Origin: a virus
Virus record (IMG/VR): IMGVR_UViG_3300035703_000256
Coordinates: 1 to 35,047 of that record
Strand: one strand, 5' to 3'
DNA: 35,047 bases
A model generated the notes under the pieces. The model saw nothing but the letters and a program-made list of their open reading frames with translations, made no database searches and was not told the DNA's origin. The position numbers and the translations under genes were made by a program. This document shows positions 12,664 to 35,047 of this stretch, one piece after another. How positions within the stretch are numbered: position 1 is the first letter of the stretch; each line of letters opens with the position of its first letter.

Positions 12664-12671
12664 TATAAATA
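12664..12671 (+). promoter_or_regulatory. T4-type late promoter TATAAATA for gp19
   Basis: Exact TATAAATA between gp18 and gp19. The predicted start near 12677 is followed by TAGGAGAT (12681-12688) and the ATG at 12693. It lies inside the palindrome TAAATATTTA (12666-12675). Confidence 0.75.
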
Positions 12672-12692: not shown

Positions 12693-13310
12693 ATGGCCGT
12701 AGCAAGCTTAACAAGATTTACAGTACCATTGGCAAGCGATCAAAGCGCACAAAACCAAGGTCTGTTGATGCCAAAGCTCAAGTATCGCTTTAGGGTAATA
12801 TTCGAGAACTTTGGTGAAACTGCCGATAGAACAGAACTTACAAAACAAGTTGTAAGTGCTGGTAGACCTGAAGTAAGTTTTGAAGAAGTAGTACTAGATG
12901 TTTACAACAGCAAGATTAAGCTTGCTGGTAAACCAAGTTGGAATGATATACAAATTGTCATTAGAGATGATGCACTTGGTACAGTTTCTAGAATGGTTGG
13001 CGAACAGCTACAAAGACAGTTTGATTTCTTTGAACAAAGTTCAGCACAAGCAGGCATTGTTTATAAGTTTACAACTAAAATTGAAATGCTTGATGGTGGT
13101 AATGGTGCAGATACTCCTATCCCATTAGAAACATGGGAACTATATGGTTGCTACCTTACTACTGTTGGTTATGGTGATTTGAACTATGGTGAAAGTAATC
13201 CAGTTGAACTTACTTTAACTGTAAAGTATGATAACGCACTTCAAACTCCACAAGGTACCGGCGTTGGTGCTGCTATCGAACGTCGTCAAGGCGCAACAGC
13301 TACTGGTTAA
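12693..13310 (+). CDS. gp19: Tail tube protein gp19
   Basis: 205 residues beginning ASLTRFTVPLASDQ. It carries the gp19 hallmarks: LKYRFRVIFENFG, the loop TKQVVSAGRPEVSFEEVVLD, YNSKIKLAGKPSWNDIQIVI, QRQFDFFEQ, and LETWELYGCYLTTVGYGDLN. Hexamers stack to form the rigid inner tube. T4 gp19 has about 163 residues, so it is slightly extended at both ends. It has its own late promoter and a strong ribosome site, and ends in a clear rho-independent terminator, as expected for a protein needed in many copies. Confidence 0.95.
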   Translation: MAVASLTRFTVPLASDQSAQNQGLLMPKLKYRFRVIFENFGETADRTELTKQVVSAGRPEVSFEEVVLDVYNSKIKLAGKPSWNDIQIVIRDDALGTVSRMVGEQLQRQFDFFEQSSAQAGIVYKFTTKIEMLDGGNGADTPIPLETWELYGCYLTTVGYGDLNYGESNPVELTLTVKYDNALQTPQGTGVGAAIERRQGATATG

Positions 13311-14649: not shown

Positions 14650-15007
14650 TAATACACCAAAAACAACAGATAATTTTAATACGTCATCATATTTTAATGG
14701 TTATTATAAAACTAACTTACCTGTTAATGGTCAACAATATGACGCTGTGTTAACTTTTTTCTTAAAAAAAACAAGTGGCAATAAAGTTGCTGCCGAAGCA
14801 TTGGCAGCAAGCGTAATAACAATAGCGCAAAACAGGGGTATAAACCCATTAAGCATCGTAGATGATTTTAAGAATTATAAAGATAATGATAGCTTTAAAG
14901 CAGCATTGTTAGCTTTATTAAACACAGAACGCAGAACAACAAGCAAGTTGGGATACAGCGTAACCCCAGAAGCAAATCCATATATTGTTAGGAATATTGG
15001 AAAGTAA
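14642..15007 (+). CDS. Small tail-cluster protein, 121 aa, function unknown
   Basis: Ser/Thr/Asn-rich start, then NLPVNGQQYDAVLTFFLKKT, AAEALAASVITIAQNRGINP and FKAALLALLNTERRTTSKLG. It looks like a compact helical domain. The VxxFFxKxTxxxxxAExxAxxxxxIA pattern recurs, as I recall, in small conserved proteins next to tail genes of marine T4-like phages, whose role I do not know. The start overlaps the gp19-like stop by 8 nt and its own stop overlaps gp4 as TAATG, so it is translated as part of the tail/head-completion run. Confidence 0.7.
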   Translation: MSNNTPKTTDNFNTSSYFNGYYKTNLPVNGQQYDAVLTFFLKKTSGNKVAAEALAASVITIAQNRGINPLSIVDDFKNYKDNDSFKAALLALLNTERRTTSKLGYSVTPEANPYIVRNIGK

Positions 15008-15459
15008 TGGCTAACAAAAAATGGTTGCAAGGTAAGTTTACCATTAAAAATCCTGAGAAATATGTTGGTACAAATACACCAACATATCGCTCCAGCTGGG
15101 AATTTGCTTTTATGCAATTTTGTGATAATCATCCTAACATTATTAATTGGGCAAATGAAGCGATTAAGATACCATATCGTAATCCATTAACTGGAAAACA
15201 AACTATATACGTGCCTGATTTTTTAGTTGTTTATCAAGATAAAGATGGCACTCAAAGAACAGAGTTGGTTGAAATAAAACCAAGCAGCCAAACAACATTG
15301 GAAAGTGCTGGCAAAAATAGACAAAATCAAGCAGCAGTTGCAGTTAATATGGCAAAATGGCAAGCAGCAAACGCATGGGCAAAACGTGCAGGCATCACTT
15401 TTAGAGTTATATCAGAAAGTGACATATTTAGAAACACTAAAGGCACTAAACGTCGCTAA
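15007..15459 (+). CDS. gp4: Head completion nuclease gp4 (gp50/65)
   Basis: 150 residues that follow T4 gp4 closely in pattern: GKFTIKNPEKYVGTNTPTYR, then SSWEFAFMQFCDNHPNI, IKIPYRNPLTGKQ, YVPDFLVVY and LVEIKPSSQT. The E32, D71 and E89-x-K91 set fits a TnsA/PD-(D/E)xK nuclease. In T4, gp4 acts at the head vertex after packaging and is needed for tail attachment and finished DNA ends. The gene overlaps the previous stop as TAATG and is followed 8 nt later by gp16. Confidence 0.9.
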   Translation: MANKKWLQGKFTIKNPEKYVGTNTPTYRSSWEFAFMQFCDNHPNIINWANEAIKIPYRNPLTGKQTIYVPDFLVVYQDKDGTQRTELVEIKPSSQTTLESAGKNRQNQAAVAVNMAKWQAANAWAKRAGITFRVISESDIFRNTKGTKRR

Positions 15460-15467
15460 GTAATTAC

Positions 15468-15926
15468 ATGACTAAGAATTTAGAAAATTTTTTTAATTTA
15501 CCAACAGCAGAAGAAACAGAAGAGCTATCGCAAGCAGAACTTGTTGAGGTATTAAAGGAAGCTGAAGAGATTGACGATAAGATGAAGGGTATTGTTGATC
15601 TTAGTTCCAGTGATAAAGAAATGGATGACATTGCGGATAAGGCAATGGAAACATTTAAGGATTTGATGGATCTTGGTATGAACGTTGATGCAAGAGCAGC
15701 CGCCCCTATATTTGAAGCAGCTACTAAATTGATGGGACATGCTGTTACAGCTAAAACAGCTAAAATAGATAAGAAGTTGAAGTTGTTGGACATTGAACTT
15801 AAAAAGCGTAGATTAGATCATCAAATAGCACAAGATACAGGCAACAACGAAGATGCAGGAGATGTTGAGGGTACTGGTCGTATACTAGATAGAAATGAGC
15901 TTTTGAGGATTATCAAAGGCAATTGA
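15468..15926 (+). CDS. gp16: Small terminase subunit gp16
   Basis: 152 residues. An acidic N-terminus (PTAEETEELSQAELVEVLKE) leads into the two-helix core EEIDDKMKGIVDL, MDDIADKAMETFKDLMDL, DARAAAPIFEAATKLMGHAV and TAKTAKIDKKLKLLDIELKK, which matches the T4 gp16 central coiled-coil oligomerisation domain (DDYGVVRRNMHFQQQML...VFATLMGQMTTTNREIL). The C-terminus ILDRNELLRIIKGN may contact gp17. gp16 assembles a ring and stimulates gp17 ATPase and DNA cutting. Unlike in T4, it is not next to gp17: more than 9 kb lie between them here. Confidence 0.8.
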   Translation: MTKNLENFFNLPTAEETEELSQAELVEVLKEAEEIDDKMKGIVDLSSSDKEMDDIADKAMETFKDLMDLGMNVDARAAAPIFEAATKLMGHAVTAKTAKIDKKLKLLDIELKKRRLDHQIAQDTGNNEDAGDVEGTGRILDRNELLRIIKGN

Positions 15927-15935
15927 TAATGATTT

Positions 15936-15969
15936 TTGCTAAATATGATATCGAGAGGTATCTTAGCAA
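15936..15969 (+). promoter_or_regulatory. Inverted repeat enclosing ribosome site and start of the MKSFTEF gene
   Basis: TTGCTAA (15936-15942) is inverted as TTAGCAA (15963-15969), and inside it GATA (15947-15950) pairs with TATC (15959-15962). The loop holds GAGAGG, and the right arm ends on the A of the ATG at 15969. The left arm carries the late promoter, so late RNA would lack it. Confidence 0.65.
15938..15945 (+). promoter_or_regulatory. T4-type late promoter GCTAAATA
   Basis: GCTAAATA stands 23 nt before the ATG at 15969. The predicted start near 15951 leaves a short leader with GAGAGG as ribosome site. Confidence 0.6.
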
Positions 15970-16535
15970 TGAAGAGCTTTACAGAATTCTTAACAGAATC
16001 AACTAAACAGTATAATTTCCGTATAAAAGTAGCTGGCACACTATCAGATGAGCAAGTTGATAGACTTGAATCAGCAATGGAAAAATGGGGTTTACAAAGC
16101 ATTAATAAACCAAAAGTAACCCCAATTCAAAAGCATCCAGTAGATTTTACTAATCTAAAAGAAATTGAAGTTAGCATTATGGATATGACGCTAGATTATC
16201 CGGCAACTCCACAAGAAATTATTGCTAGAATAGCAGAGTACTGCACACTAAATCCAGAGTATGTCAAAGTATTCAATAGCGATGATCCAAATGTAGCAGA
16301 GATGGAAGAACGTGCAGAGGAAGCAGAAGAAGAGTACGAAGTTCAACTTACTGCTCCATATCCAAAGAGCGATAAGAATCTTCCATATGGTGATAAGTTT
16401 AATCAAAAATTCCTTAAGGATCAAAAGCGTAAACCTGCATTTAAAGTAGCTGGCGGCAATACTTCAAAAGTTCAAAGCACTAATGATTTACCACAAGGTA
16501 AGTCAAGTCCAATTAGTGGTCGCAAAGGAAAATAA
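15969..16535 (+). CDS. Putative prohead core or internal head protein with capsid-targeting peptide
   Basis: I start at the ATG at 15969 because GAGAGG lies 8-11 nt upstream and because it yields MKSFTEFLTEST; an upstream TTG at 15936 lies inside the promoter. MKSFTEFLTE|S closely resembles the ten-residue capsid-targeting peptide of T4 internal proteins (MKTYQEFIAE), cut after (L/I)xE by the gp21 protease. The body, YNFRIKVAGTLSDEQVDRLE, QSINKPKVTPIQKHPVDF and EIEVSIMDMTLDYPATPQEI, is an alpha/beta domain I recall from marine phage head regions without an assigned function. After an acidic stretch AEEAEEEYE, residues from about 125 to 188 are Lys/Ser-rich and probably disordered. First gene of the accessory block. 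Confidence 0.65.
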   Translation: MKSFTEFLTESTKQYNFRIKVAGTLSDEQVDRLESAMEKWGLQSINKPKVTPIQKHPVDFTNLKEIEVSIMDMTLDYPATPQEIIARIAEYCTLNPEYVKVFNSDDPNVAEMEERAEEAEEEYEVQLTAPYPKSDKNLPYGDKFNQKFLKDQKRKPAFKVAGGNTSKVQSTNDLPQGKSSPISGRKGK

Positions 16536-16538
16536 TCT

Positions 16539-18509
16539 ATGAAAATTAATTCCAAATTAATGGGGTTTGCTGCTGGAACAAAAGTGTTGATGGCAGATGG
16601 AAAAGAAAAAGCAATTGAAGACATTAATGCTGGTGATGTTGTATTAAGCTTTAATCAACTTGATGCTTTTGGTGTTCTTGAACCTAAAAAAGTTTTAAAC
16701 ACTTATAAAAGATTAGATCGCAATCCACTTAAAGTAAAAGTTCATAACAGCGATATTGAGCTAACTGTAGCAGAAGGTCAGTTGTTTATTAATCCAGGAT
16801 CAGACTGGAAAAATGCTACTAACATTAATGAAATTATAGACGGCGAAGGCAACGTTCATAAGTTTGATGTAAGTAGAATTAGTAGAGGTAAGCACGCAAT
16901 ATACGACATTATTGTTGAAGATAACCACAGCTTGATTGCTAATGGTGTGCGTGTACACAACATGACTTATAGTATTGCTGATGTAATTGCTGGTCGTAAC
17001 TTAGCCGGTAGTGATATACAGTCTGGTCCAATCGGTAATTACAATTACAGAGGGGATTACGATAACAATAATAGAAATTATTCACAAGGCAATAGTAAAA
17101 AGAAAAAATCAAATAAAAGAAAAAACATTAAACCAGAACCAAAAATTGATGGATTACAAGCTGGTGCAAAGCTATTATCAAGCATTGAAGATTTAACTGA
17201 TCTGTTAAGTGAGATTATTGATGAAACAACCCCAGCAAACTTAACTATACTTAAACTTGTTGTACAACAAAGTGTAGACAACATTGTTAATTATCTTGCA
17301 AGTTTTGGTGCAAGCATACTAAACGCAACAATGTCTGCATACGATAAATCAGAAATATTAGTAATGACAGCAGATATGACACAAGCTGCTGTTGCTATGC
17401 GTAAACCATTTGAAGAAACAGTTGTAAGCGCAAGCGGTAAATTAATTGCTGCAACACAACTAAAATTGTTTGAATTACAAATTGCGCGTATGAATGGTAT
17501 ATTAGAAACATACTTAGGTCCTGCAGAAGCAGATGAGAAATTATTTGATGTTAATAGAGATGGACAAGATGTGTCTGGGTCTAAAAGCAGAAAAAATGCA
17601 AATTCAAGAAGTAATGATGGGCGTTATGGATCTAGCGGTGGAAACAATAGATCTAGCGGTGGATCTAGTGGAAACAACAGATCAATCGGAAAAACTACTG
17701 GCGGCGGGCCTGCTCCAGCAAAAAATACAAAAGTAGGTGGTCCAACTCAAAAAGTAAAATCTCCTGCAGGACCAAGTAAAGCCCCAACACCAACAGCAAG
17801 ACCTCAAGGGTTAAGCAGGCCTGTTGGCAGCCCAAGCAACCTACGCTCTGATTCAGCAGCAGGTTTAAGAGCTGGCGGGGGTGTTCAATCGCCAAATCAA
17901 ACAGGACCAAATAAAGGATTAGGTTCAGTTGGTAGTACAGCTAAAACTGGAATGGCAAGCCAAGGTGCAAGTTATAGCGGACCAGCAAGTGCAGGTGCAG
18001 CTCAAAAAGCACAAGCTCAATCTAGAGCAACAGCAAATGCTAGAGCAGCAGCTACAAGTTCAGCAACTAGAAATTCTTCTAACTTCTGTTTTGCTTACGG
18101 AACAATGTTTAAAATGGCAGATGGCAGCTTAAAAGCAATACAAGATATACAAGTTGGTGATAACATGTTGTTAGGCGGACGAGTCACAACAACAATGATT
18201 TCTGATGGCATGCTAGAAGATTGGTATATCTACAACGGTGTAAAATTAACTGGTTCGCATCCTGTACTTGACAGAGACGGTGTATGGAAAAAAGTTTACG
18301 AAACAGATATAGCTATACCAACAACACAAGAGGAACTAAACTATATCTTAATCAACGAAAATCACAAGATGATTTCACACAACGGCGAAATATTTACTGA
18401 TTATTTCATGGTAGGTATGGAAAATCAAATTAGAGCTGAAATGTATCATAGGGATTTTGATAATATGTTTAGAATACTAAACAATCAACCAGTAATGAGA
18501 GAATCATAA
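16539..18509 (+). CDS. Hint-domain protein A, with N-terminal and C-terminal Hint modules
   Basis: 656 residues. Module 1, residues 9-141, runs from GFAAGTKVLMADGKEKAIED through GDVVLSF and ISRGKHAIYDIIVEDNHSLI to ANGVRVHN. It is a Hint (hedgehog/intein) fold, but the first residue is Gly9 instead of Cys and the block-B His is replaced (AEGQLF). His140-Asn141 at the end are kept, followed by Met142. Residues 205-335 form a helical domain (LLSSIEDLTDLLSEIIDETT). Residues 345-510 are Gly/Ser/Pro/Ala-rich and disordered. Module 2 starts C517-FAYGTMFKMADGSLKAI and has GSHPVLD with H574; it keeps the N-terminal catalytic pair but I see no clear terminal block. The gene starts 3 nt after its neighbour with AAAGGA. 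The role is unknown; it is probably virion-associated. Confidence 0.75.
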   Translation: MKINSKLMGFAAGTKVLMADGKEKAIEDINAGDVVLSFNQLDAFGVLEPKKVLNTYKRLDRNPLKVKVHNSDIELTVAEGQLFINPGSDWKNATNINEIIDGEGNVHKFDVSRISRGKHAIYDIIVEDNHSLIANGVRVHNMTYSIADVIAGRNLAGSDIQSGPIGNYNYRGDYDNNNRNYSQGNSKKKKSNKRKNIKPEPKIDGLQAGAKLLSSIEDLTDLLSEIIDETTPANLTILKLVVQQSVDNIVNYLASFGASILNATMSAYDKSEILVMTADMTQAAVAMRKPFEETVVSASGKLIAATQLKLFELQIARMNGILETYLGPAEADEKLFDVNRDGQDVSGSKSRKNANSRSNDGRYGSSGGNNRSSGGSSGNNRSIGKTTGGGPAPAKNTKVGGPTQKVKSPAGPSKAPTPTARPQGLSRPVGSPSNLRSDSAAGLRAGGGVQSPNQTGPNKGLGSVGSTAKTGMASQGASYSGPASAGAAQKAQAQSRATANARAAATSSATRNSSNFCFAYGTMFKMADGSLKAIQDIQVGDNMLLGGRVTTTMISDGMLEDWYIYNGVKLTGSHPVLDRDGVWKKVYETDIAIPTTQEELNYILINENHKMISHNGEIFTDYFMVGMENQIRAEMYHRDFDNMFRILNNQPVMRES

Positions 18510-18679
18510 TGGGCATAGAAATTATAAATATTAAACGTAGACCTAGTTCAGGTGGAGGAAAAGCAAACGGTACCAGCGGTGCTAAAACTAACACCCACAC
18601 TGTACGGGCAGAAGATTTGAGGATACATAAACCAATAGTAGGTCAAGGTGGACTTAGTATGGTATTAAAGTTAAAGTAA
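18509..18679 (+). CDS. Small protein between the two Hint genes (56 aa)
   Basis: ATG at 18509 overlaps the stop of Hint protein A as TAATG. The product starts MGIEIINIKRRPSSGGGKAN, has a Gly/Thr/Lys linker, and ends IHKPIVGQGGLSMVLKLK. Basic and short, no membrane segment. The tight coupling on one side and the ribosome site of the next gene on the other (TAAGGGGAAAG) support a real gene; it may work with the Hint proteins. Family not recognised. Confidence 0.6.
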   Translation: MGIEIINIKRRPSSGGGKANGTSGAKTNTHTVRAEDLRIHKPIVGQGGLSMVLKLK

Positions 18680-18689
18680 GGGGAAAGAA

Positions 18690-20045
18690 ATGATAAACGC
18701 ACAAGTAGTTGGATTTGCAGAAGGTACGCCAATATTAATGGCAGATGGTACTTGGAAAGCAATTGAACAAGTAAAGCAGGGTGATTGGGTTATGAGTTTT
18801 GATCCAAAAATTGAAAATAGCCCCTTAGAACCACAAAAAGTTGTTGATACAGTATCAACGATGCACAGAGATTGTATTGAGATACATGCCAATGGAAAAG
18901 TTACAATTGTAGCAAAAAACCAATTATTCTTTACCCCTGGAGCAAATTGGGCACCTGGTTACGAAACAAAGCAAATTATAGATTACTCAGGTTACGCACA
19001 AAATATTCAAACTCGTAAGGTGCGCGGCGGAAAGTTTAAAGTTTTTGATCTGCAGGTTGAAAAAACACACAGTTTAGTAGCCAATGATCTTAGAGTACAC
19101 AACTTTATATTTGGATTATTTGGTATTACAATTAAAAGAAAAGTAGTTCAAAGACCTCAACCAGTTGTAACTGCTGGTAAACCAGGTAAACCAGTAAGTG
19201 TTACTACAACTACAAATGGCAGAACAACTACTGTAGTTGTAAACCCAAGTCCAGGTAGCAGTGGTCAAATTAGTGTAGGCGCAAGCGGTCAAATTAGTGT
19301 TCGTCAAAATGCAGTTCCTGGTCTTCCAATAAGTGAATACGCTTATTATCAACCACCGGTAGTATTACCATATCCTGGTGGTAGTTATGTACATGATCGT
19401 GCGCTAAATGCTGAAATTATTCGTAGCAGTGTTTGCGGGAATATACTAGATAAAGGCAACAACTATCGTGTTACAAGAAATGATGAAATTGCATGGGAAG
19501 CTGAAATCGATACTATGATTGCTGAACTTAACACAATCAAAGATTTAAGAGTTCCAGTATATACTGGTCCATATAGAACTGGTACTGGTACGTTTATAAG
19601 AAGAGACACAACGTCTATCAATGATGCAATTAATGCTGCTCAAGCTCTTAAAAGAGAAATACGCGCAGGTCGCAGGGTCTCAACCGGTGTGATCAGACAA
19701 AACTGTGATAAGATTGCAAGTATTATAAACAGAGTAAGAACTAGTGTACCTGATATTAGCAATCCTGTTGTTATTATACCAGGTTCTCCTCCTGCTCGAC
19801 CAGTAGTAGTAGTACCAGGTCCAAGTAACTATCACACAGATAGAATTTATGAAGATGATGCAAACTATAGTTATATGCTACGTTTAGCAAGTGGTTGCTC
19901 ATATGTATATGATCCACCAAATGCTCCAGCAAATACTAAAATTAGATATTACAAGCACTGGGATCCAGTTGCCAACAAGTATTATTATGACCGTGTAAGC
20001 AGTGGTGCAACTTGTACTACTTTTGGCGGAAACACTCAGGCTTAA
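18690..20045 (+). CDS. Hint-domain protein B
   Basis: 451 residues. Residues 8-138 form a Hint module paralogous to module 1 of protein A: GFAEGTPILMADGTWKAIEQ, GDWVMSF, VRGGKFKVFDLQVEKTHSLV and ANDLRVHN. The same changes occur: Gly8 instead of Cys1, KNQLFF instead of the block-B His motif, His137-Asn138 kept, then Phe139. The rest differs from protein A: a Thr/Val/Pro-rich linker (150-230), a middle domain with RVTRNDEIAWEAEIDTMIAE and SINDAINAAQALKREIRAG, and an end rich in Tyr and Pro with KIRYYKHWDPVANKYYYDRV. If Asn138 cyclises, the protein would be cut there. Ribosome site AAGGGGAAAG. Function unknown, probably structural. Confidence 0.75.
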   Translation: MINAQVVGFAEGTPILMADGTWKAIEQVKQGDWVMSFDPKIENSPLEPQKVVDTVSTMHRDCIEIHANGKVTIVAKNQLFFTPGANWAPGYETKQIIDYSGYAQNIQTRKVRGGKFKVFDLQVEKTHSLVANDLRVHNFIFGLFGITIKRKVVQRPQPVVTAGKPGKPVSVTTTTNGRTTTVVVNPSPGSSGQISVGASGQISVRQNAVPGLPISEYAYYQPPVVLPYPGGSYVHDRALNAEIIRSSVCGNILDKGNNYRVTRNDEIAWEAEIDTMIAELNTIKDLRVPVYTGPYRTGTGTFIRRDTTSINDAINAAQALKREIRAGRRVSTGVIRQNCDKIASIINRVRTSVPDISNPVVIIPGSPPARPVVVVPGPSNYHTDRIYEDDANYSYMLRLASGCSYVYDPPNAPANTKIRYYKHWDPVANKYYYDRVSSGATCTTFGGNTQA

Positions 20046-20056
20046 GGAAAATATAA

Positions 20057-20776
20057 ATGGATATGAAATCATTATTAGATAAGATGACTCAACTGTCACA
20101 AGTTGACGAAGCAAAACCAGACTTTCTTGATTTAGATAAAGATGGAGACAAGAAAGAACCTATGTCAAAAGCCGCTAAAGAAAAAGGCGATGGCAAAGAC
20201 GATAAGAAAAAAGTAGATGAAACTTCAGAAAAGATGTTGTCTAAAATGAAAGACAACGACTTAATGAAACATCGTCGCGATGCGAAAGCAGATGCTAAAA
20301 AAGAAAAAGAAGATAAAAAAGTAGATGAAGCAATTGCTATTCAAGCTGATGGCAATGAAGCAATGGCACTACTTGATATTCTTAAGTTAGCAGGTCGCCC
20401 AGAACCACAACCAATGACAATGGGTGGATGCGGCATGACAGAAGCTGATAGAGATCCAACTTATGCCAATTCTCCAGATGAAATGGTAGCTGATATGGAT
20501 GCTGCTGTTCCAAGTGGTAACGACATGCATCGTGAAAAAGATAGTTGGCGTGCTGCCGCTGGTGCAGATAACCCAATGATTGCACAAATGGAAGGCAAGC
20601 TTGCTAAGATGTTTGAATCTTTGTCAAAAGAAGATGATGATGAGGATGATGACGACGAATGGTATGATGCAAAAGGTAAAAGATCTAAGAGCGGTGCATA
20701 TGATGCAGGTGGGCACTATCATGCTGATCGCGATGCAGATAAAGTAAAAGCAACATTTTCATCTAAAAAGAAATAA
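20057..20776 (+). CDS. Highly charged scaffold-like protein with DxDxDG motif
   Basis: 239 residues, dominated by Lys, Asp and Glu with low hydrophobicity, as in T4 scaffold gp22 and internal proteins. Near the start FLDLDKDGDKKEPMSKAAK contains D25-x-D27-x-D29-G30, an EF-hand or dockerin-type calcium loop pattern that I recall from marine T4-like phages. Three VDE sites (16-18 before Ala19, 53-55 before Thr, 89-91 before Ala92) resemble prohead-protease sites. LLDILKLAG at 105-113 is a short hydrophobic motif shared with two genes downstream. The end has a poly-acidic run DDDEDDDDEWYDA. Ribosome site AAGGA. It is likely to be present in the prohead, but this is inference. Confidence 0.6.
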   Translation: MDMKSLLDKMTQLSQVDEAKPDFLDLDKDGDKKEPMSKAAKEKGDGKDDKKKVDETSEKMLSKMKDNDLMKHRRDAKADAKKEKEDKKVDEAIAIQADGNEAMALLDILKLAGRPEPQPMTMGGCGMTEADRDPTYANSPDEMVADMDAAVPSGNDMHREKDSWRAAAGADNPMIAQMEGKLAKMFESLSKEDDDEDDDDEWYDAKGKRSKSGAYDAGGHYHADRDADKVKATFSSKKK

Positions 20777-20788
20777 GGATCTTACTCA

Positions 20789-22153
20789 ATGAGTCTTAAA
20801 AAGTACTTAACAGAGGCTGAACTAGCAGCCGTTCAGCCCATAACTGGTGACGCATTTGACATCAGTATTAGAGAACTTACTAATATTGAAACTGTAGTAG
20901 TTGAGCATACTGAAGGTAGTATCACTATACAGTTAGATGATACTGCTATTAAGATGTTAGAAGAATGCGGTTGTACTTTTGAAGATGAACAACTTGATGA
21001 ACTTGCGCCAGTAATTGGCGCATTAGCACGTGGCGTTGCTGCTGGAGCAGGTGCTCTCGCTAGAGGTGCTGCTAAAGCTGCCGTTGGTACTGGGGTTAAG
21101 GCTGCTGCTGATAAGTTGGATAAAAAACTGTTTGGTCCTCGTCCTAGCGAAGGTGATTATGAATATGAAGAATCTGTTCGCGAGCAAGACGAAGATGAAG
21201 AAGACTATAGTCCACAAGTAGGTGATATAGTACAAGTAGTATACGAAACAGAACATGAAGGGCACTACGGCGAAGTTGTTGAATTAGCACCAAGCGGCGA
21301 ATGGGCTTATGTTCAATTTAAAGACGGTGATATTGAAGCATATCATGGAAGCGATCTTCGTCAAGCAACTGAACAAGAGGAAGAAGAATACTACTATGGT
21401 TCAGAAGATGAATTTGAAGAAAGCTTAAACTCTATCCGTAAACTTTCAGGTATGGCACCAAAAGAAGCAGTAAAGGAAGAAAGTTACGATAAATCATCTG
21501 GCAGTCCATATGATCGCGGCGCTGCTGATAGCTATTACGGAAGAAAAGCTCGCCCACATAAAATGGTCCCAGCTAGTGACGGTGTAAAAGGTCAGATGCA
21601 AATGGTATCATTAACTGATCCAAAAGAAATTGCTGCTTATAATGCTGGTTATAGCGAAAATGATGACCGTAAAAACTACGGCGAAGGTATTGAAGATTGG
21701 AATATGAAGGTTACATCAATACCACGTACAGAACCATTTCAACTTAAGAAGATTGTTGTTAAGTCAAAATTTGGCAAAACTTATACATTTGACACAGAAG
21801 AAGATGCTCGCAGGCATTTTGGTAGCAACTGGGATTCAAAGATTAATAATCCAGAATGGCGTGCAGCAAATGGCTGGAAACTGGAAATGAATAATACTAA
21901 GCCAGTAGATGAAGCAGAATACCGTGGTCGTAAGGTATCACTCGGTAAACCAATGCAAGGCGATGTCGCTAAGTTTAAAGTATATGTAAAAGACCCAAAA
22001 ACTGGTAATGTAAAGAAGGTCAACTTTGGTGACAAAACTATGCGTATTAAAAAAAGCAATCCAAAGCGCCGTAAGAGTTTCCGTGCAAGACATCGTTGTA
22101 AAAATCCCGGTCCTAGAACAAAAGCTCGTTACTGGTCATGCAGAGCTTGGTAA
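20789..22153 (+). CDS. Putative head-internal protein with KOW-like domain, 454 aa
   Basis: The start MSLKKYLTE|A fits a capsid-targeting peptide with an LTE|A protease site. Residues 72-112 are an Ala/Gly-rich amphipathic segment (GALARGVAAGAGALARGAAK). Residues 142-190 (PQVGDIVQVVYETEHEGHYG, then EVVELAPSGEWAYVQFKDGD) look like a KOW or Tudor-type SH3 barrel. LNSIRKLSG at 213-221 is the shared short motif. The C-terminal end FRARHRCKNPGPRTK, ARYWSCRAW, with two Cys and two Trp, is a pattern I recall from marine T4-like phage proteins of unknown role. The stop overlaps the GIY-YIG gene as TAATG. Confidence 0.65.
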   Translation: MSLKKYLTEAELAAVQPITGDAFDISIRELTNIETVVVEHTEGSITIQLDDTAIKMLEECGCTFEDEQLDELAPVIGALARGVAAGAGALARGAAKAAVGTGVKAAADKLDKKLFGPRPSEGDYEYEESVREQDEDEEDYSPQVGDIVQVVYETEHEGHYGEVVELAPSGEWAYVQFKDGDIEAYHGSDLRQATEQEEEEYYYGSEDEFEESLNSIRKLSGMAPKEAVKEESYDKSSGSPYDRGAADSYYGRKARPHKMVPASDGVKGQMQMVSLTDPKEIAAYNAGYSENDDRKNYGEGIEDWNMKVTSIPRTEPFQLKKIVVKSKFGKTYTFDTEEDARRHFGSNWDSKINNPEWRAANGWKLEMNNTKPVDEAEYRGRKVSLGKPMQGDVAKFKVYVKDPKTGNVKKVNFGDKTMRIKKSNPKRRKSFRARHRCKNPGPRTKARYWSCRAW

Positions 22154-22761
22154 TGAATTACATTATCTATAAAATTCAAAACAATATAAACGGCAAATAT
22201 TACATTGGACGACACGCGACTAAAAACACACATGATTCATACATGGGAAGCGGTCGTGGAATTAGAAATGCTATTTCTAAATATGGAATAGAAAATTTTA
22301 CTAAAGAAATTATTGCTGTTGCAGACAGCGCAGAAAAACTATGGGAATTAGAAAAAGAAATAGTAAATGAAGATGTAGTTAAAGATCCAATGTCATATAA
22401 TGTAGCCTACGGTGGTAAACATTATTTGCACGGGCTAAAAGAATACAACTACGATGCATTTATTGAACACCAAAGAAAAGCAGGTCAATCTTACGCAAAA
22501 AATTTTAAAGGTAAGGAAAAGCAGTGGCATCAAAAAGGTGGAGCAACCTCTTCCCGTATGAGAAGCGAACAATACATTTACAAAATTACAACTAATATTG
22601 GCGAAGAATTTATTGTAAACGGTATACAATTTAAAGAACTGTGTAAAGAAAAAGAGTGGAATTATAATACGCTTCATTGGAAACAAAGTATAGGCAGAAT
22701 TATTGCTAAAGGAAAACATAAAGGATTTCTTGTAGAACAAATAAGTAGTTACAGGAAGTAA
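22153..22761 (+). CDS. GIY-YIG family endonuclease (Seg-like)
   Basis: 202 residues from ATG 22153, which overlaps the previous stop; an in-frame ATG at 22138 lies within the upstream gene. The domain starts YIIYKI (3-8) and KYYIGRH (15-21), the GIY and YIG elements, then SYMGSGRGIRNAISKYGIEN and the segment AEKLWELEKEIVNED with the expected Glu helix, and NVAYGGKHYLHG. The C-terminal third (VNGIQFKELCKEKEWNYNTL) looks like a helix-turn-helix DNA-binding part as in NUMOD-bearing homing enzymes. Probably a free-standing homing endonuclease that cuts phage DNA lacking the gene and spreads it by repair. Confidence 0.8.
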   Translation: MNYIIYKIQNNINGKYYIGRHATKNTHDSYMGSGRGIRNAISKYGIENFTKEIIAVADSAEKLWELEKEIVNEDVVKDPMSYNVAYGGKHYLHGLKEYNYDAFIEHQRKAGQSYAKNFKGKEKQWHQKGGATSSRMRSEQYIYKITTNIGEEFIVNGIQFKELCKEKEWNYNTLHWKQSIGRIIAKGKHKGFLVEQISSYRK

Positions 22762-33899: not shown

Positions 33900-34000
33900 T
33901 TAAACTTTTTAAAAAAATTATTAATAAAATTAAACTTGAATTAATGTATCGTAAAAGATTAAAAGAACTAAAGAAGCGCGACCCATTCATCTATGACTAA
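33896..34000 (+). CDS. Very small basic protein, 34 aa
   Basis: ATG 33896 overlaps the methyltransferase stop as ATGA. The product starts MIKLFKKIINKIKLELMYRK and ends LKKRDPFIYD. It is an amphipathic, Lys-rich helix with a conserved-looking DPFIYD end, which I recall before carbamoyltransferase genes in marine phages. The stop overlaps the next start by 8 nt. Such tight packing on both sides supports a real gene. It could bind nucleic acid or a membrane surface; unknown. Confidence 0.6.
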   Translation: MIKLFKKIINKIKLELMYRKRLKELKKRDPFIYD

Positions 34001-35047
34001 GCAATATTTAGGTATAAGCCAAGGTTTTCACGATGCCGGACTGGCATTAATAAGTGATAAAGGAGACATATTACATGCAAGTCACAGCGAACGTTATAGT
34101 CGTGTAAAGAATGATGCTTCATTATGTTATAAACAGTTTCACGATTGCGAATTATTTGGATTTGAGGATGTAAGTGTAAATTATTATGAGCGTCCGTGGC
34201 TAACTAACTTGCGTCGATTTTATGCTGGTCAAGAAACTAAATCAATTAAATCTGTTATTAACAAACTGAAATATTTTGATTTGCCTACTAAAATGAAAAA
34301 GTGGGGGCATCACTTGTCACATGCAGCCGCAGCATTTCAAACAAGCCCATTTGAACGCAGTGCAGTTGTAGTTGTTGATGCAATTGGTGAATGGGACACT
34401 GCTAGTATTTGGTACGCATACTATGATGACAATGGTGTTGCTCAATATCAAAAACTTTGGTCACGCAAGTATCCACATAGCATTGGACTATTCTATACTG
34501 CAATGACGCAACGTGTTGGGCTGCGTCCAATGGAAGATGAATACGTTCTTATGGGTATGGCATCTTACGGTAGTTCAAAATTTCTAATGAAGAATATGAT
34601 CCATAACTTCATTGAAGATATAAACGAGATAAAATTTAAGAAAAATCTTCATATAGGATGTGATGATTGGGCACCTAAACATAAGATAGAAAACATTGCA
34701 GCAACTACACAAGATTTAACTGAAGTATTGCTGTATAAAATACACCAAAAAGCAGCAGAACTAACACAGGAAAGTAATGTATGCTACGGTGGAGGCGTTG
34801 CGTTAAACTGTAAGTTTAACACAAATCTACATGAAGTGTGGAGTAACGTGTGGATTTGTCCTAACCCAGGCGATTGTGGATCAGCACTTGGAGCGGCAGC
34901 ATTAGGTTATGGTAAAAGACTTAATTGGCAAAATGCTTTCTTAGGTTATTTTATCCCTGGTAATTTAGATGTAAAAGCTGTAATTGATACACTGTCAAAA
35001 AAACAAATAGTTGGTGTTGCTAATGGGTATGCAGAATGGGGACCACG
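33993..35047 (+). CDS. Carbamoyltransferase (NodU/CmcH family), 3' end outside window
   Basis: 351 codons visible. The start YLGISQGFHDAGLALIS is the actin-like ATPase-type first motif of the family. H106-H107-LSHAAAAF contains the HHxxHA carbamoyl-phosphate site, VVVVDAIGEWDTASIW and PHSIGLFYTAMTQRVGL follow, then CYGGGVALNCKFN and ICPNPGDCGSALGAAALGY. These enzymes move a carbamoyl group to a hydroxyl, usually on a sugar or antibiotic; in marine T4-like phages the substrate is unknown. The C-terminal YrdC-like-associated part is cut by the window edge. Part of an overlapping run with the methyltransferase, so a joint modification path is likely but unproved. Confidence 0.9.
   Translation, partial: MTKQYLGISQGFHDAGLALISDKGDILHASHSERYSRVKNDASLCYKQFHDCELFGFEDVSVNYYERPWLTNLRRFYAGQETKSIKSVINKLKYFDLPTKMKKWGHHLSHAAAAFQTSPFERSAVVVVDAIGEWDTASIWYAYYDDNGVAQYQKLWSRKYPHSIGLFYTAMTQRVGLRPMEDEYVLMGMASYGSSKFLMKNMIHNFIEDINEIKFKKNLHIGCDDWAPKHKIENIAATTQDLTEVLLYKIHQKAAELTQESNVCYGGGVALNCKFNTNLHEVWSNVWICPNPGDCGSALGAAALGYGKRLNWQNAFLGYFIPGNLDVKAVIDTLSKKQIVGVANGYAEWGP

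Follow-up and report, generated by a model that had tools for sequence, protein, structure and literature searches.

Two Hint modules that keep the residues for the C-terminal half of intein chemistry

What can an intein-like module still do when its N-terminal nucleophile is gone and only the residues of its C-terminal end are kept? The question is raised by two paralogous genes, A and B, in a 35,047-nucleotide stretch of viral DNA (IMG/VR record IMGVR_UViG_3300035703_000256, positions 1 to 35,047; hereafter the window), which is a fragment of a T4-like phage. Open reading frame (ORF) calls place protein A (656 residues) at 16539-18509 and protein B (451 residues) at 18690-20045; both genes, and all parts of them given below, lie on the + strand. 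Each protein starts with a Hint module whose sequence suggests a natural leader that cuts itself off on one side only, and not a splicing element. We suggest, with a probability of about 0.6, that the modules are degenerate A-type bacterial intein-like (BIL) domains kept as N-terminal propeptides, which would cleave only at their terminal Asn by cyclisation.

In protein A, a leader of eight residues (MKINSKLM; 16539..16562) precedes the module, which profile matches and alignments place at residues 9-141 (16563..16961). In protein B, the leader has seven residues (MINAQVV; 18690..18710) and the module spans residues 8-138 (18711..19103). An earlier note on this DNA had called these regions Hint modules that are paralogous over their whole length, and both claims hold at the sequence level. 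BLASTP aligned A 3-156 with B 2-153 at 36% identity (E 2e-31), a similarity that spans the entire module and is not due to chance. Pfam matches in the modules were Hom_end_hint, PT-HINT and Intein_splicing, and NCBIfam intein_Cterm scored above its cut-off in both proteins, with the N-terminal region not reported. A profile of ten family members matched the solved structures 6tmm (E 9e-14), 2lwy (1e-9) and Mtu RecA mini-inteins (about 1e-6); PDB 6tmm and 6y75 are the Tetrahymena BUBL BIL, and some of the matched mini-inteins are cleaving mutants. Alignment with Cys1 phage modules by hhalign gave 99.8% (E 4e-30). Across Pfam, NCBIfam, the PDB profile and hhalign, the Hint sequence profile was matched end to end, and from the matches to solved BILs and inteins we infer that modules A and B have the Hint fold.

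Block residues are numbered here as in PMC4031507. The position expected to hold Cys1 or Ser1 is occupied by Gly9 in A and Gly8 in B. In the profile-profile alignment with Cys1 modules, 'VAEGQLF' of A sits on 'ITPNHWV', so that the block-B Thr-x-x-His is replaced by Ala-x-x-Gln (in A, Ala78 at B:7 and Gln81 at B:10). At the other end, module A has Asp123 (F:4), His130 (F:13) and His140-Asn141 (G:6-G:7; codons 16956..16961), and the predicted scissile bond follows Asn141. Both modules end in VHN (Asn138 in B), followed by Met142 in A and Phe139 in B. The glycine at position 1, the Gln-Leu-Phe in place of the block-B His and the VHN end followed by Met or Phe had all been described in the earlier note, as had their consequence: with Cys1 and the block-B His lost, normal splicing is closed to the modules, which could at most cleave on the Asn side or act as a structural fold. 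By the same positions, a class 1 intein is ruled out by Gly1, the Ala/Gln block B and the non-nucleophilic +1 residue; a class 2 intein (KlbA type; Ala1, Ser G:6, Cys+1) by Gly1, His G:6 and the lack of Cys+1; and a class 3 intein (Cys F:4) by Asp F:4 in 10/10 modules.

Conservation of the modules among relatives

Relatives were gathered by scans of viral contigs, among which a single-sequence scan with full protein A returned none. The same A-B pair was found at the same place in four more uncultured T4-like genotypes (loci L005/L004, L008/L009, L074/L075 and L071/L072), and homologues with the Gly1...HN pattern, which the earlier note had proposed to look for, come from four further genotypes, with Gly1 and HN in 10/10 modules. 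All ten modules of the five genotypes have Ala at B:7 and Gln at B:10 besides Gly1, and all ten keep Asp F:4, His F:13 and His-Asn at G:6-G:7, in the same D-H-H-N spacing as the Cys1 relatives. Invariant columns make up 29 of the 136 that are ungapped across the ten modules, and the probability that the four pre-chosen sites of the C-terminal centre would all be invariant by chance is about 0.002. The codons of the invariant key sites differ synonymously among modules, and the ratio of nonsynonymous to synonymous substitution (dN/dS) in the module is 0.04-0.34, taking only pairs with unsaturated dS. The complete C-terminal reaction centre is kept in all ten modules under strong purifying selection. 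With this centre invariant and Gly, Ala and Gln fixed at position 1, B:7 and B:10, the comparative data strengthen the cleavage option.

Conservation has a sharp edge at the terminal Asn. Among A orthologues, mean pair identity falls from 0.90 in the ten columns that close with Asn to 0.03 in the ten beyond it; among B orthologues it drops from 0.72 to 0.15 past Asn and rises again within the cargo. The +1 residue is M, K, K, V or N in A and F, G, G, G or K in B, and is never Cys, Ser or Thr. On the other side, the N-flank in the ten copies consists of at most about 8 leader residues plus 0-7 codons to the upstream in-frame stop, two leaders of the L072/L075 type being a few residues longer or shorter. 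In the window, one in-frame codon separates the upstream stop from the ATG of A, the leader being essentially the whole N-flank, and five separate it from the leader of B. Because the upstream in-frame stops cap the N-flank at about 8-16 residues, N-terminal cutting or splicing would be pointless.

The loci fetched for this analysis, a set skewed by the choice of queries, contain distinct full-length HN-ended modules with Cys1 (75) and with Ser1 (6), and Gly1 occurs in this lineage only (9 modules plus A of the window). In the tree, the Gly1 modules group as one clade (support 100/99); its sister, with weak support (81/37), is a set of modules located near the N-terminus of J-like tail-tip proteins. 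Since the Gly1 modules fall in one clade, a single loss of Cys1, before or during the duplication into A and B, is probable. More distant phages with the gene upstream of A (L154, L158, L162, L167, L173 and L177 were inspected) have no A or B match, and there the next gene downstream of it is a small one, of the PDFLDLDKDGDK type or another; the A-B pair therefore looks like an addition within this phage lineage.

Proposed cleavage after the terminal Asn and its alternatives

According to the reading we favour, two divergent A-type BIL-like Hint domains, each opening one of the two paralogous phage proteins, would have shed the N-terminal part of the intein reaction and retained the C-terminal part. 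Following translation and folding, the block-F His, the Asp and the penultimate His would activate the terminal Asn, the side chain of which would cyclise and break the bond to residue +1. The cargo would then be freed with a new N-terminus, from residue 142 onward in A and 139 onward in B. Splicing could not follow, as positions 1 and +1 both lack a nucleophile and the leader of about 8 residues is all there is of an N-extein. The loss of the N-terminal centre together with the strict retention of the C-terminal centre is as predicted for a domesticated C-terminal-cleaving leader. The cutting of the bond, the moment at which it happens and any role in the virion are inferred. In inteins, His F:13 and His G:6 assist Asn cyclisation, with Asn G:7 also named, and C-terminal cleavage arises when cyclisation precedes branching (PMC4031507).

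Several observations weigh against cleavage. Mutation of His B:10 and Asp F:4 sharply cuts both N- and C-terminal cleavage in class 2 inteins, and Gln stands at B:10 in all ten modules. An intein without the consensus residues at B:10 and F:4, Arsp-FB24, is an inactive pseudogene (PMC3196547). The conserved His-Asn could also have a structural role, and the modules may then be catalytically silent Hint folds that serve as N-terminal structural or interaction domains, with His-Asn kept because the last strand needs it to fold or pack. This is the strongest of the alternatives, although we think it rather unlikely. Invariant Gly, Ala and Gln have taken the places of Cys1, Thr B:7 and His B:10, which suggests a fixed surface without catalytic function; without B:10, both cleavages can be lost, and purifying selection on the module is expected in either case. 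Against a silent fold, the four C-terminal-centre residues are invariant together, a structural domain need not end exactly where conservation does, just past Asn, and the highly variable, non-nucleophilic +1 residues suit a cleavage site.

Splicing, or cleavage at both ends, by a full A-type BIL or a class 2 or 3 intein with an unrecognised nucleophile is very improbable, as class 2 requires Cys+1 and class 3 Cys F:4, whereas the modules have M, K, V, N, F or G at +1 and Asp at F:4 in 10/10, and no real N-extein. Least credible is an accidental pattern in decaying inteins or pseudogenes, for although decaying inteins typically lose key residues, as in the inactive Arsp-FB24, the low dN/dS, the frames intact in all but one B copy (L071) and the identical substitutions fixed in ten modules of five genotypes all speak against it.

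Cargo and a second Hint in protein A

The central part of protein A (residues 142-516; 16962..18086) consists of a Lys-rich linker, then a probably helical domain (about 200-330) and a Gly/Ser/Pro-rich low-complexity stretch, and it had no match among phage records. The cargo of protein B (residues 139-451; 19104..20042) includes PVVTAGKPGKP... and a C-terminal YYKHWDP...YYYDRV stretch. Neither cargo matched anything in PHROGs, PADLOC or named phages: PHROGs gave neither protein a significant family and a weak match for A alone (E 0.059), and in PADLOC the one match was to the generic Hint portion of a model for homing endonucleases.

The earlier note had likened the modules to a shared device with exchangeable cargo, and this can be upheld in part. 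The attached domains of A and B do differ completely, and the sequence of A just past Asn is unrelated between orthologues. A further switch is seen in L073, which is 99.5% identical to L071 over 5,029 bp, with zero mismatches in the last 500 bp, and then diverges completely from L071/L072 right after the module's Asn codon (L073 6065-6101), the contig ending 37 bp later. In the viral collection, this new sequence was found in the same contig only. The switch is either a cargo swap at the module edge or an assembly artefact, the latter because the contig ends so soon and the novel sequence is unmatched. The cargo of B, in contrast, is conserved and occurs in B orthologues only, and a search for it without the B module found none; exchangeability is therefore supported in part and not as a general property. 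One B gene, in L071 (6204-7315), is broken into two ORFs compared with L072 6283-7566; L071 is without about 170 bp present in L072, and the remainder is 99.6% identical.

Protein A also carries a second Hint, absent from the earlier note, at its C-terminus (residues about 517-631; 18087..18431), with Cys517 at position 1 and 'TGSHPV' as block B. It has Cys1 and the block-B His but no terminal His-Asn, which fits the B-type BIL pattern (Cys1, block-B His, no block-G HN). It had no match among named phages, and the A orthologues in L005 and L009 terminate before it. The N-terminal module would cut only at its C-end and the C-terminal Hint only at its N-end, so the central segment 142-516 could be freed on both sides. 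Protein A might then be a self-unwrapping precursor with one-sided Hints, and a splicing element might have become, in this phage lineage, a heritable leader for the one-way release of cargo associated with the virion; we regard this extension as speculative and unlikely. Separately, a protein unrelated to A (L067 4792-6861) has the same Hint pairing, in which an HN-type Hint is immediately followed by a C-terminal Hint like that of A (SHMV...FTDYF, 52 bits).

Genome setting

The window encodes a tail sheath and tail tube, a gp4-like head closure protein, a T4-type large terminase and a single-stranded DNA-binding protein. Genes A and B are flanked upstream by a gene at 15936-16535 with a capsid-targeting-like start (MKSFTEFLTE) and downstream by a gene encoding PDFLDLDKDGDKKEP (20057-20776). 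The earlier note had placed A and B in a region of candidate head-packaged proteins; capsid-targeting-like N-termini in neighbouring genes are MKSFTEFLTE and MSLKKYLTE, and proteins A and B themselves have none. Between A and B lies a small ORF of 56 residues, MGIEIINIKRRPSSGGGKANG... (MGIEIINIKRRPSSGGGKANGTSGAK...VGQGGLSMVLKLK; 18509..18679, + strand), which is conserved in L005, L009 and L075 and has a C-terminal half that is still recognisable in the most distant genotype (L072). The T4 late-promoter-like TATAAATA occurs on the + strand at 12664, 13367, 18523 and 29314. Three of these sites are 29-89 bp ahead of ORFs at 12693, 13399 and 29403, and the one at 18523 falls within the 56-residue ORF; the total count equals chance expectation, and the placement is suggestive. 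Elsewhere in the window, a GIY-YIG homing endonuclease-like ORF (22138-22761) overlaps the end of the preceding gene and resembles an ORF at L071 9374-10135, and a Nol-like carbamoyltransferase homologue (33993-35045; phrog_1601, E 6e-41) is present in this T4-like phage. Rfam had no match within 15000-22000.

Comparison with known systems

In the openly available literature, we found no description of Gly1 Hint modules or of proteins A and B. The modules resemble A-type BILs (Dassa 2004 and Amitai 2003, as cited in PMC4031507; e.g. PDB 2lwy) in their end-to-end Hint homology, terminal His-Asn (10/10), lack of a +1 nucleophile and occurrence in variable, non-housekeeping host proteins. They differ in having an N-flank of only about 8 residues and in lacking both Cys/Ser1 (Gly in 10/10) and the block-B Thr/His, which makes the N-terminal thioester step impossible. 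The best match of the family profile among solved sequences, the Tetrahymena BUBL BIL (6tmm), is eukaryotic and sits in another host protein.

Closest in the tree, although weakly (81/37), are the modules of phage tail-tip J proteins (L080, L128, L137 and others; hhalign 99.8%), which share the N-terminal position and the VHN followed by a non-nucleophile but have Cys1 and a TPNHW block B, in a host protein like the lambda tail-tip protein J. A Cys1...VHN Hint lies within the first ~160 residues of many phage proteins of about 990-1350 residues (L076, L077, L079, L080, L097, L104, L112, L117, L128, L137 and L144), flanked by glycine-rich stretches and mostly with Ala or Lys at +1. The two carriers checked (L080 and L128) are lambda tail-tip J-like, and these modules look like A-type BILs in tail-tip proteins. 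PT-HINT of polymorphic toxins likewise stands ahead of a cargo that it is thought to release; the actinobacterial HN-ended modules found here, however, carry Ser1, and the phage cargo has no toxin match.

Engineered C-terminal-cleaving mini-inteins with position 1 mutated, such as Mtu RecA derivatives, have the same predicted Asn cyclisation without an N-terminal nucleophile, but they are man-made, whereas the phage state is natural and evolutionarily maintained. If the cut occurs, the modules of A and B would parallel, in a natural and evolutionarily stable form, the engineered C-terminal-cleaving inteins that serve in protein purification. The two halves of intein chemistry would then be separable by evolution and open to domestication for maturation in the structural genes of phages.
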